DNA of 64,000 bases from Planctomycetota bacterium (GTDB taxonomy: Bacteria > Planctomycetota > UBA1135 > GCA-002686595): the NCBI GenBank assembly GCA_016779205.1, contig JADHOC010000004.1, positions 62,001 through 126,000 of the forward strand, given 5' to 3'. The translations under genes were made by a program, and so were the position numbers. The notes under the pieces were generated by a model. The model saw only the letters and a program-made list of their open reading frames with translations, was not told the DNA's origin and did no database searches. The stretch's first letter is position 1. Each line of letters begins with the position of its first letter. Below are positions 6,984 through 11,423 of the stretch, one piece after another.

Positions 6984-7466
6984 ATGAGACTCTCGACAGT
7001 GATCTGGTCCGCGCTCGGGCTGATCCTCCTCGTCTTCGGGGGCAGCCGGATCATGGCTGGCCTCGGGGACCGAGAAACCCAGATCCGGCGCCAGATGGCC
7101 GCCATGGTCGAGTCCGTCATGGAAACCGGCGGGGGACGCCTCGGCCGCTATGTGTCTCGCCAGTACTTGGACGAGGACACCGGGCTGGACTACGGCGACC
7201 TGCGGTCGGCGCTCCGTGGTGGCCCGGACGACCTCGTGCCCGAGTTCGATCCGTCGACCGGGATCGAGTTCCTGTCCACCGACAGCGAGGGCGACGATGT
7301 GATCTGCACCATCCGCCTGCGGTGCCTCCTGAAGAAGCGCACCCTCGGCCAGGCGCCCCGGCCCTACTGGGACCTGGAGGCCGTGCTGGACCTGCGCCTG
7401 CGGCGCGGCACCTGGAAGGTGCTCCGCTCCCGCGAGGTCAACCACTCCGACCGCGGGCGAGCCTAG
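6984..7466 (+). CDS. Small N-terminally anchored protein of unknown function
   Basis: 160 residues, no family recognised. One hydrophobic segment at residues 5-24 (STVIWSALGLILLVFGGSRI) would act as membrane anchor or uncleaved signal. The remainder is soluble, mixed helix and strand, ending in a small sheet-like region (YWDLEAVLDLRLRRGTWKVLRS) reminiscent of NTF2/SnoaL-like folds, though I cannot confirm that. It faces away from the FkbM operon across a gap of about 260 bases and overlaps the tail of the convergent response-regulator gene by 4 bases. Confidence 0.65.
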   Translation: MRLSTVIWSALGLILLVFGGSRIMAGLGDRETQIRRQMAAMVESVMETGGGRLGRYVSRQYLDEDTGLDYGDLRSALRGGPDDLVPEFDPSTGIEFLSTDSEGDDVICTIRLRCLLKKRTLGQAPRPYWDLEAVLDLRLRRGTWKVLRSREVNHSDRGRA

Positions 7467-8872
7467 GAGAGGCCGTACTCCTTGATCTTGCGGTAGAGCG
7501 TCCGCTCACCGATCCCCATGACCTCGGCGGCCTTCTTCCGGTTGCCGTCCATCAGCTCGAGGTTGGCCCGGATCAACGCGCGCTCCACCTCATCCAGCGA
7601 TCGCCCCGCGAGGTCATAACCGCCGCCCCCCGGGGCCGCGCCGCTGTCTCCCGCGCCGGCGCCGGTCGCGGCTCGGATCGACTCGGGGACATCGTCCACG
7701 GCGAGCGTCGCTCCTCCGGCCAGGAGGACCATGTTCTCCACGGCGTTCCGGAGCTCCCGCACGTTCCCAGGCCAGCGATAGCGGGCGAGGAGCGCGCGCG
7801 CCTCGGGGGAGATGCCCTCCACCTCTCGGCCATGCAGCCCCCGGAACTCGTCGATGAAGTGATCGATGAGGAGGGGCACGTCGCCGGTCCGCTCCCGGAG
7901 CGGCGGCAGCATGAGCTCCACCACCTGGAGTCTGTGAAAGAGGTCCTCGCGGAACTCGCCGTCCTGGACCATCTCCCGCAGGTTGCGGTTGGTCGCCGCC
8001 ACCAGGCGGATGTCCACCGCGCGCGGTTCATTGCCCCCGACCTGCACCACCTCTCGGGCCTCGAGGACCCGCAGCAGCTTGGCCTGGGTGGCCAGGGGCA
8101 TGTCCCCGATCTCGTCCAGGAAGAGGGTTCCACCGTCGGCGTACGCCACCCGGCCCTCCTTGTCGCTCAGGGCTCCGGTGAAGGCCCCCTTCACGTGACC
8201 GAACAGCTCGGACTCGATGAGCCCGTCCGTGAGCGCGGCGCAGTTGACCGCGACGAAGTTCTGGTCCCGGCGGTCGCTGTTGGTGTGGATGGCCCGGGCG
8301 ATCAGCTCCTTGCCGGTCCCGCTCTCCCCGAGGATCAGCACCGTCGCGTTGGTGGGCGCGACCCGCGCGAGGATCTCGAAGACCCGCGTCATCTCCTTGG
8401 AGTGCCCGCGCAGCCCGTCGAAGCCGAAGCTCTTGTCGAACTGACGTCGGAGCTCAACGTTCTCCGAGCGGAGGGTCTCGTTGTCCCGGCGGAGCCGCCC
8501 CTTCTCGATCGCGCGCGAGAGCTTGGCCCGCAGCTCCGCGAGCTTGACCGGCTTGCTCAGGTAGTCCTCCGCCCCTTCCCGCATGGCGTTCACCGCGGTC
8601 TCCACCGTGGCGTGCCCGGTGATCAACAGCACGGGCGTCTCCGGGGTCAGGCGCTTGGCCTCCTGGAGGACCTCGAGGCCCGAGCGGTCATGCATGACCA
8701 GGTCGGTCAGGACCGCGTCGAACACGCTCTCCTCAAGGGCCTTCACGCCCTCACCTCCGGACCCGACCACCGTGCAGTCGTAGCCGTCGATCTCCAGGCC
8801 GTCGCCGAGGGCCTCGCCGTGGCCCTCGTCGTCGTCGATGATCAGGATCTTCCCTGCGCTCGCGTCACTCAT
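7463..8872 (-). CDS. Sigma-54-dependent response regulator (NtrC family)
   Basis: 469 residues with three domains. The receiver (residues 8-125) has the acidic triad at 13-15, phospho-acceptor Asp57 and conserved Lys107. The AAA+ domain has Walker A GESGTGKE (182-189), sigma-54 contact loop GAFTGA (229-234), Walker B GGTLFLDEIG and an arginine-finger region with WPGNVREL. A Fis-type helix-turn-helix closes the protein (NRKKAAEVMGIGERTLYRKI). It activates sigma-54 promoters when phosphorylated. Its ATG lies inside the last codons of the histidine kinase gene (8-base overlap), so the two form a cognate pair. Target genes are unknown. Confidence 0.95.
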   Translation of the reverse strand: MSDASAGKILIIDDDEGHGEALGDGLEIDGYDCTVVGSGGEGVKALEESVFDAVLTDLVMHDRSGLEVLQEAKRLTPETPVLLITGHATVETAVNAMREGAEDYLSKPVKLAELRAKLSRAIEKGRLRRDNETLRSENVELRRQFDKSFGFDGLRGHSKEMTRVFEILARVAPTNATVLILGESGTGKELIARAIHTNSDRRDQNFVAVNCAALTDGLIESELFGHVKGAFTGALSDKEGRVAYADGGTLFLDEIGDMPLATQAKLLRVLEAREVVQVGGNEPRAVDIRLVAATNRNLREMVQDGEFREDLFHRLQVVELMLPPLRERTGDVPLLIDHFIDEFRGLHGREVEGISPEARALLARYRWPGNVRELRNAVENMVLLAGGATLAVDDVPESIRAATGAGAGDSGAAPGGGGYDLAGRSLDEVERALIRANLELMDGNRKKAAEVMGIGERTLYRKIKEYGLS

Positions 8873-9698
8873 CGGTATCTCCTGGGTCGCCCGGCGTCCG
8901 ACCGGCCTCGTCCTGTTCGTCTGCCCCGGAGCGAGTGGGCCGGATCTCCTGCAGGAGCGGCAGCCACATCACGAAGCGAGTCCCTCGCCCCTCCTCGCTC
9001 ATGACGCCGATCTCCCCGTCGTGCATCTCGATGATGCGCTTGACCGTGGCGAGCCCCAGCCCGGTCCCGTTGCGCTTGGTCGAGTAGTAGAGGTCGAAGC
9101 ACTGCTCGAGCTGCTCCGGTGACATCCCCACCCCTGAATCGGTGATCGTCAGCTCCGCCCTTGGCCCGTCACGGCGCAGCTCGACGATGAGCTCCCCGCC
9201 GCCGGGCATCGCCTGCCGAGCGTTGACAATCAGGTTCAGGAGCGCTTGCCGGAACGTCCCCCCGTCCAGCATCACGAGCGGGAGCGACCCGGGGAGCAGG
9301 GCGTGCAGCCGGACCCCTTCGGCCTCCAGCTCGGGCTCGGCGAACTCCAGGGCGTCCCGGACCAGCGCCACCAGGTCCGCCGGCGCCCGGTTGATGTCGC
9401 CCCCGCGCGCGAAGCGCAGGAAGTCCTCGAGGATGCCCTCCAACCGCGTCACCTCTCGCTGGAGCGTCTTCACCCGCTTGAGCGAGCGCTTCTCCGCGGG
9501 CGATTGGCCGCCGTCCCCACCGGGTGCCGGCTGGAACTCCTCCTCGAGCAGGGTCAGGTTGATGGCCATGGTCGAGAGCGGGTTCTTGATCTCGTGCGCG
9601 AGGCCCCCGGCCAGGCGCGCGAGCATCCGTCGCCGTCCGCTGACCTCCTCCACCGGGCCCACGGGAGGCCGGCTGTCCCAATCAATCTCCTCTTCCAT
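8865..9698 (-). CDS. Soluble sensor histidine kinase (NtrB-like)
   Basis: 277 residues from the ATG at 9698; an in-frame TTG at 9722 preceded by GAGGA is a real alternative. The H-box is LAHEIKNPLSTM with His35; an N-box (NLIVNARQAM), G1 (DSGVGM) and G2 (GTGLGLATVK) complete the HATPase domain. There is no transmembrane segment and almost no input domain ahead of the dimerisation helix, so this is a cytoplasmic kinase that must receive its signal from a partner. It ends with an acidic Gly/Asp-rich tail and overlaps the cognate regulator. The upstream neighbour is divergent, leaving a short shared promoter gap of about 90 bases. Confidence 0.93.
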   Translation of the reverse strand: MEEEIDWDSRPPVGPVEEVSGRRRMLARLAGGLAHEIKNPLSTMAINLTLLEEEFQPAPGGDGGQSPAEKRSLKRVKTLQREVTRLEGILEDFLRFARGGDINRAPADLVALVRDALEFAEPELEAEGVRLHALLPGSLPLVMLDGGTFRQALLNLIVNARQAMPGGGELIVELRRDGPRAELTITDSGVGMSPEQLEQCFDLYYSTKRNGTGLGLATVKRIIEMHDGEIGVMSEEGRGTRFVMWLPLLQEIRPTRSGADEQDEAGRTPGDPGDTDE

Positions 9699-9787
9699 GG
9701 CGGGGGCCCGCGGATCGACCAAAATCCTCGCGAAGCACGGGGGCCCGGCGGCAGACTAACCGCACACGGCCTCCCCGTGCCCTCCCT

Positions 9788-10894
9788 TTGAGCGAGTCAG
9801 ACGACCTCACCGTCCAGGCCGGCCACCGGCCGACCGAGGACGTCATCCAGCGCCTGGTCCAGGCCCTGGAGGCCGGGGCCGTCGTCTCCATGCCCACGGA
9901 GACCGTCTACGGCCTCGCCGCGCGGGCCGACCAGCCCGAGGCCCTCGAGCGCCTGGCCGCGGTCAAGGGAACGAAGGACCCCCGGCCGTACACCTGGCAC
10001 GTGGGCGGCGCGGAGGCCCTCGCCGGGCGCGCCGCGCTGCCGGCCCTGGTGGAGCGGGCGACGGAGCGGTACTGGCCCGGCCCCCTGACGCTCGTGGTCC
10101 GCTCCTCGGCCCCGGGGCTCGACCTCATCACGGCCGACGGCTGGACGGGTGTCCGCGCCCCCGCCCATGAGGCCACCGGCGCGGTCCTCAGCGCGGCCCC
10201 CTTCCCGGTGGTGATGACCAGCGCCAACCGGGCGGGCGAGTCGCCAGCCACCGACGCCGAGACGGTTCGTCAGATCTTCGCCGATGGTGAACTGGCGGCC
10301 GTGCTCGACGGCGGCCCTTGTGCCCTCGGCGAGGCCTCCACGGTGGCGCGGCTCGGCCCCGGTGGGATAGAACTGTTGCGAGAGGGAATCGTGACCATGG
10401 AAGAGATCAAGCGCACGGCCGGTCAGCGGCTGCTTTTCGTCTGCACGGGCAACACCTGCCGTAGCCCCATGGCAGAGGCCCTGGCTCGCACCGCGCTCCG
10501 CAGCGCCCTCGAAGCCAAGGACGAGGCCGACTTCGGGTTCATGATCGGATCGGCCGGGGTCTACGCCGGGCCCGGCGCTCCCGCGTCTCCCCAGGCGATC
10601 GAGGCCCTCGCCGAGCGCGACATCCCCCTCGGGGATCACCGCTCCACCCCCGCCCTCGAGGCGCTCGTCGCCGACCAGGACCGCGTCTACTGCATGACCG
10701 CGTCGCACCGCGACGCGCTCCTCTCGATGCTGCCCGAGGGCGCCGCGGCCAACGTCGAGCTCCTCGACCCCGCCGGAGAAGACGTGCCCGATCCCTTCGG
10801 CGGTTCGCTCGAGATCTACCGCCAGACCGCCGACGCCATCTCCCGCATGGTGGACGCGCGCATGGCGGACTGGGTCGGCCCGCCGCCGAGCTGA
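9788..10894 (+). CDS. Fusion of threonylcarbamoyl-AMP synthase (TsaC/Sua5) and arginine-type low-molecular-weight phosphatase
   Basis: 368 residues from a TTG; no earlier or later start fits better. Residues 15-200 form a YrdC/Sua5 domain (SMPTETVYGLAA at 34-45, KGTKDPRP at 60-67, SANRAGESP at 145-153), which makes threonylcarbamoyl-AMP for tRNA t6A modification. Residues 214-360 are a low-molecular-weight tyrosine-phosphatase fold with the C-X5-R loop CTGNTCRS (Cys219, Arg225) and general-acid loop DPFGGS (Asp335). Thr223, where most tyrosine phosphatases have Ile, is the residue known to give YwlE-type enzymes selectivity for phospho-arginine. One continuous frame joins both domains by a short linker (about 200-213). 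B. subtilis carries the counterparts as separate neighbouring genes (ywlC, ywlE). Confidence 0.92.
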   Translation: MSESDDLTVQAGHRPTEDVIQRLVQALEAGAVVSMPTETVYGLAARADQPEALERLAAVKGTKDPRPYTWHVGGAEALAGRAALPALVERATERYWPGPLTLVVRSSAPGLDLITADGWTGVRAPAHEATGAVLSAAPFPVVMTSANRAGESPATDAETVRQIFADGELAAVLDGGPCALGEASTVARLGPGGIELLREGIVTMEEIKRTAGQRLLFVCTGNTCRSPMAEALARTALRSALEAKDEADFGFMIGSAGVYAGPGAPASPQAIEALAERDIPLGDHRSTPALEALVADQDRVYCMTASHRDALLSMLPEGAAANVELLDPAGEDVPDPFGGSLEIYRQTADAISRMVDARMADWVGPPPS

Positions 10895-10955: not shown

Positions 10956-11423
10956 TCAGGACGTCCCCGCGATGAGGGCGGCTCGAGCCTCCTCGGCGTC
11001 GGCGGTGGCCAGCAGCCGCTCGCGCACGGAGTCCTTGGCCAGCACCCTGGCGATGTCCGCGAGGGTTCGGATGTGGAGCAGCTTCTGCGCCTTGGGGATC
11101 ACGAGGAGCACCACGACCCGCGTCGGCTGACCGTCGATGGACTCGAAGTCGAGCCCACCGTCACGCTGCACCACGCCCATGGCCCCGACGATCTCGGGGA
11201 GGTCGTCCACCGCGGCGTGCGGGATGGCGACCCCCAGCTCCATTCCAGTGGACATCGAGCGCTCGCGGGCGAGGACGGCCTCGCGGACCGTCTCCGACGC
11301 CTCCGGGCTCAGCCGGCCACGCTCCACCAGGTGATCCACGAGCGAGTGGATCGCCTCCCACTTGTCCGCGGGTTCAAACCCCAGGAGGAGATCCTCGGGT
11401 TGGAAGAGTTCGCTCGGTCCCAT
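10956..11423 (-). CDS. PTS EIIA domain protein (EIIA-Ntr/fructose type)
   Basis: 155 residues, the full length of a single EIIA domain. The phospho-acceptor site is His69 within GVAIPHAAV, preceded by RERSMSTGMELG, the usual EIIA-Ntr/Fru pattern. No EIIB or EIIC domain is present and no transporter gene is adjacent, so a regulatory role in a nitrogen-PTS-like relay is more likely than sugar import. It is the last gene after two membrane-protein genes on the same strand, with a 19-base gap that suggests co-transcription. Confidence 0.88.
   Translation of the reverse strand: MGPSELFQPEDLLLGFEPADKWEAIHSLVDHLVERGRLSPEASETVREAVLARERSMSTGMELGVAIPHAAVDDLPEIVGAMGVVQRDGGLDFESIDGQPTRVVVLLVIPKAQKLLHIRTLADIARVLAKDSVRERLLATADAEEARAALIAGTS

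Follow-up and report, generated by a model that had tools for sequence, protein, structure and literature searches.

The locus spanning positions 9788 to 10894 of the window, that is, the whole stretch of 64,000 nucleotides analyzed here, raises the question of whether a TsaC/Sua5 enzyme, which initiates the essential t6A modification of tRNA, and a phosphatase acting on protein arginines are encoded as a single polypeptide and, if so, whether the tether between them carries any functional meaning. Examination of the forward strand revealed one frame of 368 codons in this region, beginning with a TTG start codon, ending with a TGA stop codon and containing no internal stop. The features of this gene and its product are as follows:

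9788..10894, forward strand: Sua5/TsaC-YwlE fusion gene, 368 residues, TTG start (open reading frame, translation and two-domain Pfam match)
9860..10387, forward strand: TsaC/Sua5 (YrdC) domain, residues 25-200 (PF01300 and TIGR00057)
9893..9913, forward strand: PTETVYG motif, residues 36-42, universal among 46 stand-alone Sua5 proteins
9965..9973, forward strand: position of the KxR motif, residues 60-62, reading K-G-T, with Arg replaced by Thr
10220..10228, forward strand: SxN motif, residues 145-147, reading SAN and intact by motif comparison
10388..10429, forward strand: linker, residues 201-214, modeled mostly as helix with high confidence
10433..10852, forward strand: YwlE-type low-molecular-weight (LMW) phosphatase domain, residues 216-355 (PF01451; best PDB relatives are YwlE)
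10442..10465, forward strand: P-loop CTGNTCRS, residues 219-226, with Thr223 at position PX5 (translation and alignment)
10790..10807, forward strand: general-acid loop DPFGGS, residues 335-340, the same as in B. subtilis YwlE

An open frame is by itself weak evidence in a gene of 74% G+C, where the chance of such a frame, as judged by stop frequency, is about 0.5%. A chance frame is excluded by the presence of two complete curated domains, by the recurrence of this fusion in 82 further genomes of the phylum and by a confident full-length model. Specifically, Pfam matched Sua5_yciO_yrdC (PF01300) to residues 25-200 with 131.5 bits (cut-off 25.1) and LMWPc (PF01451) to residues 216-355 with 85.6 bits, far over the cut-off, while TIGR00057 matched the Sua5 half with 123.5 bits, barely over its cut-off of 123.2. 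These were the only two Pfam domains found in the fusion protein, the Sua5 C-terminal domain being absent. A full-length AlphaFold2 model, built from an alignment of 28 fusions, yielded a pLDDT of 90 and a pTM of 0.83, and Foldseek searches with this model led from the N-terminal part to Sua5 and from the C-terminal part to YwlE. The single uninterrupted frame put forward in the original prediction was thus borne out by the reading frame, the two Pfam domains, the other genomes and the model, and the CTGNTCRS loop with its Thr, as well as the DPFGGS loop, read as had been claimed.

An ATG within the frame, at position 10397, lies downstream of a purine-rich stretch and was considered as an internal start for the phosphatase. 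This candidate was rejected, since that ATG is absent from the two nearest relatives, rendering separate translation of the phosphatase unlikely. As for the surroundings of the gene, sequences encoding an NtrC-like response regulator and a histidine kinase (7463-9722, reverse strand) are divergent from the fusion gene, and a PTS EIIA-like gene (10956-11423, reverse strand) is convergent with it.

The C-terminal phosphatase and its probable arginine-phosphorylation partners

The C-terminal half of the protein contains the catalytic set of an LMW phosphatase, namely, C219, R225 and S226 of the C-x5-R-S P-loop and the general acid D335. Among solved relatives, B. subtilis YwlE chains were the best (83-88 bits), with a T. 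tengcongensis relative and Geobacillus YwlE scoring 85 and 71 bits, respectively, and tyrosine phosphatases (T. thermophilus 2cwd and Wzb among them) scoring at most 46 bits. Like YwlE (B. subtilis, PDB 1zgg and 4kk3; S. aureus orthologue PtpB), the domain presents CTGNTCRS with Thr at PX5 and DPFGGS, adopts the same fold (TM 0.83-0.89 on the fusion model in Foldseek), has relatives that lie in an RpiB/GlyA neighborhood and is found in a genome encoding McsB. Unlike YwlE, the domain, a predicted arginine phosphatase, forms the C-terminal part of a longer protein and belongs to a planctomycete.

Position PX5 is the selectivity determinant of LMW phosphatases, with Thr directing the enzyme to phospho-arginine (pArg) and Ile to phospho-tyrosine (PMC8001253). 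Across 83 Planctomycetota fusions, this position is occupied by Thr in 54, Ser in 13, Leu in 8, Ile in 4, Arg in 3 and Met in one, as compared to Ile in 13, Ser in 5, Leu in 2, Met in one and Thr in none of 21 other LMW phosphatases of the phylum outside family f13. Threonine at PX5 is, therefore, typical of the fusions, though not fixed, and the genomes of the 16 fusions with Leu, Ile, Arg or Met at this position still encode McsB. A phosphatase-domain tree rooted with ArsC was poorly resolved and was not used for placement. Other variation was also noted in the P-loop. In the fused proteins at L059, L063, L077 and L139, the loop reads C-x-G-N-T-D-R-S, such that the redox disulfide of LMW phosphatases could not form within the loop, the second Cys having been replaced by Asp. 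Deviant loops (CSANRCRS/CSGNRCRS and CLGNLNRS) were seen at L034, L053, L062 and L086-L089, in families f31 and f26.

The assignment of the C-terminal half as a YwlE-type phosphatase that very probably dephosphorylates protein arginines is well supported, with the identity originally proposed being backed by the YwlE relatives, the Thr at PX5, the RpiB/GlyA neighborhood of the relatives and the presence of McsB and ClpC. It is very unlikely that the domain is instead a conventional tyrosine phosphatase or arsenate reductase. While the LMWPc family takes in both types and weak NCBIfam matches to Wzb and ArsC, far under cut-off, were obtained, such a reading has to contend with the PX5 Thr, the YwlE-identical DPFGGS loop, YwlE being the best relative, the RpiB/GlyA synteny of the relatives, McsB in the genome and a distinct ArsC-type protein already encoded there. 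The latter, the only other PF01451 match in the window genome, has the P-loop CGHNAGRS, is encoded next to a channel gene and resembles an arsenate reductase, leaving the fusion as the sole candidate YwlE in the assembly. At L002:1474-1899 (reverse strand), an arsenate-reductase-like LMW protein is likewise encoded adjoining a MIP-channel-like gene.

An McsB-like arginine kinase, for which the original prediction had suggested searching the genome, was found as a single copy in the window genome (C29:3748-4881; PF00217, 200 bits). Its sequence includes RDKLRA, an instance of the RDxxRA motif, which has a role in pArg binding. Examination of the mcsB neighborhood in this genome revealed neither an adjoining McsA gene nor an adjoining ClpC gene. 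The N-domain of the ClpC encoded by the window genome contains glutamates at the equivalents of both E32 and E106, the positions of the ClpC pArg pockets (PMC12583610), although the GTEH motif of this domain may well be general to ClpC.

McsB was detected in 81 of the 83 fused Planctomycetota genomes, with the two lacking the kinase being 73% and 79% complete, and in 30 of 36 non-fused genomes of the phylum. Nearly every genome of the phylum encodes McsB, so that finding it alongside the fusion carries little weight (Fisher p 0.009, with the species not being independent). McsB was further found in all eight additional fused genomes tested through named loci, seven of which are not labeled Planctomycetota. 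Two Bacillaceae genomes and one Bacillota MAG served as positive controls in the McsB search, and three genomes from Proteobacteria and Actinobacteria were negative. PF00217 matched none of 14 named control genomes, B. subtilis included, and PF02861 gave no match in the B. subtilis control genome either. The ctsR-mcsA-mcsB-clpC region may be missing from the B. subtilis control record, an explanation likelier than an insensitive search, given that the two Bacillaceae genomes did match PF00217.

Origin and spread of the fusion

The fusion is encoded in 83 of 119 genomes of the phylum Planctomycetota and in 55 of 78 Omnitrophota genomes, with the two genes abutting or overlapping in 11 more of the latter. 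In planctomycete family f13, stand-alone Thr-type phosphatases, encoded away from Sua5, are found instead. The survey of fused and separate arrangements that had been proposed at the outset thus returned both. Among records fetched by name, the fusion again appeared mainly in Planctomycetota, as well as in single MAGs labeled Gemmatimonadetes and Aerophobetes, while no relative of the fusion was found in viral contigs.

At 45 of the 59 loci with flanking sequence, rpiB directly adjoins the fusion, usually a few bases downstream, and at fused Omnitrophota loci, glyA follows rpiB; in the family of the window itself, rpiB does not adjoin the fusion. In B. subtilis, the gene order is ywlC-ywlD-ywlE-rpiB-glyA. 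The original prediction had described the two genes as separate neighbors in that species; in two Bacillaceae loci, Sua5 and YwlE are indeed separate, near and on the same strand, but do not abut, being about 0.7-0.85 kb apart. The gene order is common to Omnitrophota, Planctomycetota and Bacillota. Given the abutting pairs in Omnitrophota and an RpiB/GlyA order as in B. subtilis, the architecture is explained by the fusion of neighbors within an old Sua5-YwlE-RpiB-GlyA cluster. Other joints of this cluster seem to fuse as well. At L152:4090-5835, immediately downstream of a Sua5-YwlE fusion, RpiB and GlyA apparently form one open frame, and the YwlE-like domain of T. tengcongensis (4egs) was given RpiB as its molecule name by its depositors.

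The Sua5 half and its decay beside a second Sua5

In the window genome (G000; 4.3 Mb), a profile search found the fusion as the single Sua5, although at 90.5% completeness a second copy could be missing from the assembly; TsaD and TsaE are also encoded. Like characterized TsaC/Sua5 enzymes (E. coli TsaC, T. maritima TsaC2, P. abyssi Sua5 and B. subtilis YwlC), the Sua5 half of the fusion presents a full-length PF01300 domain, PTETVYG and SxN and is the only copy in its genome. Unlike these enzymes, a phosphatase replaces the Sua5 C-terminal domain, and the KxR motif reads KxT in the window member. Of the KxR/SxN catalytic tetrad, K60, S145 and N147 are kept but residue 62 is Thr, despite no second Sua5 having been found, whereas the two family-mates (L008 and L009) contain K-G-R at this position. 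When it is the sole Sua5 copy, the fused half probably makes threonylcarbamoyl-AMP (TC-AMP), with such activity possibly being reduced in the window protein, where Thr takes the place of the KxR Arg. TsaC/YrdC domains are also joined to others in TsaN (TsaD-TsaC-Sua5-TcdA, PDB 8ide), TobZ and HypF. In these proteins, however, steps of one carbamoylation pathway are joined, whereas the partner in the planctomycete fusion is a protein phosphatase.

A second Sua5, defined as a strong, stand-alone PF01300 match that is neither a fusion nor of HypF size, was found in 15 fused genomes from eight families. In these, the KxR motif of the fused half is broken in 14 of 15 cases, as opposed to 12 of 66 where no second Sua5 was found (Fisher p 7e-8), and the SxN motif is changed in 13 of 15 as opposed to none of 66. 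The median number of key residues kept, of 16, was 11 beside a second Sua5 and 16 where the fused copy is the sole one (p 1e-9); as species are not independent, comparison of family means (8 vs 42 families, p 7e-5) offers the fairer figure. These 16 residues were chosen after the fusion alignment had been viewed, but a set of 42 columns drawn only from stand-alone Sua5 proteins pointed in the same direction (25 vs 33 kept, p 5e-7).

By contrast, the phosphatase loop still reads CTGNTCRS in 11 of the 15 fused genomes that encode a second Sua5. Phosphatase scores held at 79-105 bits in nine examples, most of them decayed, while those of the Sua5 half had fallen to 23-61 bits in seven. The loss of Sua5 catalytic motifs in several lineages, with the phosphatase remaining intact, is newly described here. 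Since both the fusion and the phosphatase persist after such loss, the phosphatase does not need the synthase activity of the Sua5 half. In our reading, the fused Sua5 is released from its synthase job once a second Sua5 arrives, yet is not removed, with the decayed half remaining attached in all 14 affected genomes.

The pattern is compatible with slow neutral decay as well as with a residual non-catalytic role. Family f28, where Sua5 halves are 18-26% identical in most pairs and phosphatase halves 50-56%, leans towards the former, whereas families f6 and f31, where the two halves are conserved to about the same degree (identity ratio 0.92-0.99), lean towards the latter. At L150, only 8 of 42 universal Sua5 residues are kept, the model still comprises two ordered domains (pLDDT 87, pTM 0.78) and the top 50 Foldseek matches were phosphatases only.

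The possible meaning of the tether

The reading favored here, at a probability of about 0.78, is that this gene encodes a bifunctional planctomycete TsaC/Sua5-YwlE protein that arose from fused neighboring genes and opposes McsB. Both activities are assigned by homology, with the domains, motifs, cluster, co-occurrence and decay pattern being read from the sequences themselves. The N-terminal TsaC/Sua5 domain would provide TC-AMP for tRNA t6A, while the C-terminal YwlE-type domain would strip phosphate from protein arginines, acting against the McsB encoded elsewhere in the genome and so sparing proteins from ClpC-dependent degradation. The gene itself would have originated when neighbors of the old Sua5-YwlE-RpiB-GlyA cluster fused.

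It was originally held that the fusion hints at a link between t6A modification and arginine phosphorylation. Such a link has been published independently, with McsB in B. subtilis phosphorylating TsaD at R282, ClpCP degrading TsaD and YwlE protecting it (PMC7546277). The same two pathways are joined in the planctomycete protein, in this case with the phosphatase tethered covalently to Sua5, the upstream enzyme, whereas in B. subtilis separate proteins act through TsaD degradation. On alignment of two Bacillaceae TsaD sequences, the R282 site was placed at the last Arg of GGVAAN-x-x-LR, retained as R294 in the window genome. This placement depends on the residue numbering assumed for B. subtilis TsaD. 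As the motif is common to the three TsaD sequences compared, and probably to most, R294 supports the link weakly. The fusion on its own is likewise weak evidence, since the genes are old neighbors and fusion has occurred at further joints of the cluster as well, and the loss of Sua5 motifs in the presence of a second Sua5, with the phosphatase being kept, means that any link entails no obligate coupling of both catalytic activities. At less than even odds, the tether may also place the phosphatase close to the t6A machinery, of which TsaD is a published target of McsB and YwlE in B. subtilis.

That the tether serves a function is plausible, with neutral fusion being at least as likely. There is an even chance that the fusion is a by-product of operon compaction, in which the stop codon between two neighboring genes, in many cases overlapping ones, was lost and the halves work independently, an explanation that competes with a functional tether only and not with the identity of either enzyme. 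The gene order shared by three phyla, the abutting or overlapping pair in 11 Omnitrophota genomes, the RpiB-GlyA frame at L152, the RpiB label of the T. tengcongensis domain and the decay of redundant fused Sua5 all agree with such an origin. Less readily accommodated are retention of the fusion across two phyla even without an adjoining RpiB, as in the window family, the attachment of the decayed half in 14 of 14 affected genomes and the pTM of 0.83, which would suggest a fixed domain arrangement.

It is unlikely that the Sua5 half instead serves as a non-catalytic partner of the phosphatase in docking, dimerization or ligand sensing, with synthase activity being dispensable when another Sua5 is present. 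Loss of KxR in 14 of 15 second-Sua5 genomes with the half still fused, the conservation seen in f6 and f31 and the two ordered domains modeled for L150 speak for this role, but the divergence in f28 looks like relaxed selection, and the L150 fold search recovered phosphatases only. More specifically, and unlikely as it stands, the Sua5 domain may be a targeting module, guiding the phosphatase to TsaD and the translation apparatus, or a sensor of TC-AMP, threonine or ATP supply, thereby tuning t6A capacity with pArg-dependent proteolysis, the pseudo-synthase being kept for that role alone in several planctomycete lineages.

No publication describing a Sua5-YwlE fusion was found in the open-access collection searched, outside of which most subscription journals lie, and a search there for McsB or protein-arginine phosphorylation together with planctomycetes returned a receiver-domain paper as sole match. 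Studies of protein-arginine phosphorylation have, to our knowledge, been confined almost entirely to Gram-positive bacteria. The favored reading of a bifunctional protein opposing McsB bears on this, in that the fused phosphatase, McsB and ClpC suggest that Planctomycetota possess a complete pArg system, and the fused phosphatase and McsB are also found in Omnitrophota, these being branches very different from the Gram-positives. The annotation of such fusions as Sua5 does not always denote a TC-AMP synthase, and the proteins in which Sua5 catalytic motifs were repeatedly lost while the phosphatase stayed intact provide natural separation-of-function variants. Should the tether prove functional, the link between pArg and t6A published for B. 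subtilis would become testable within one molecule.
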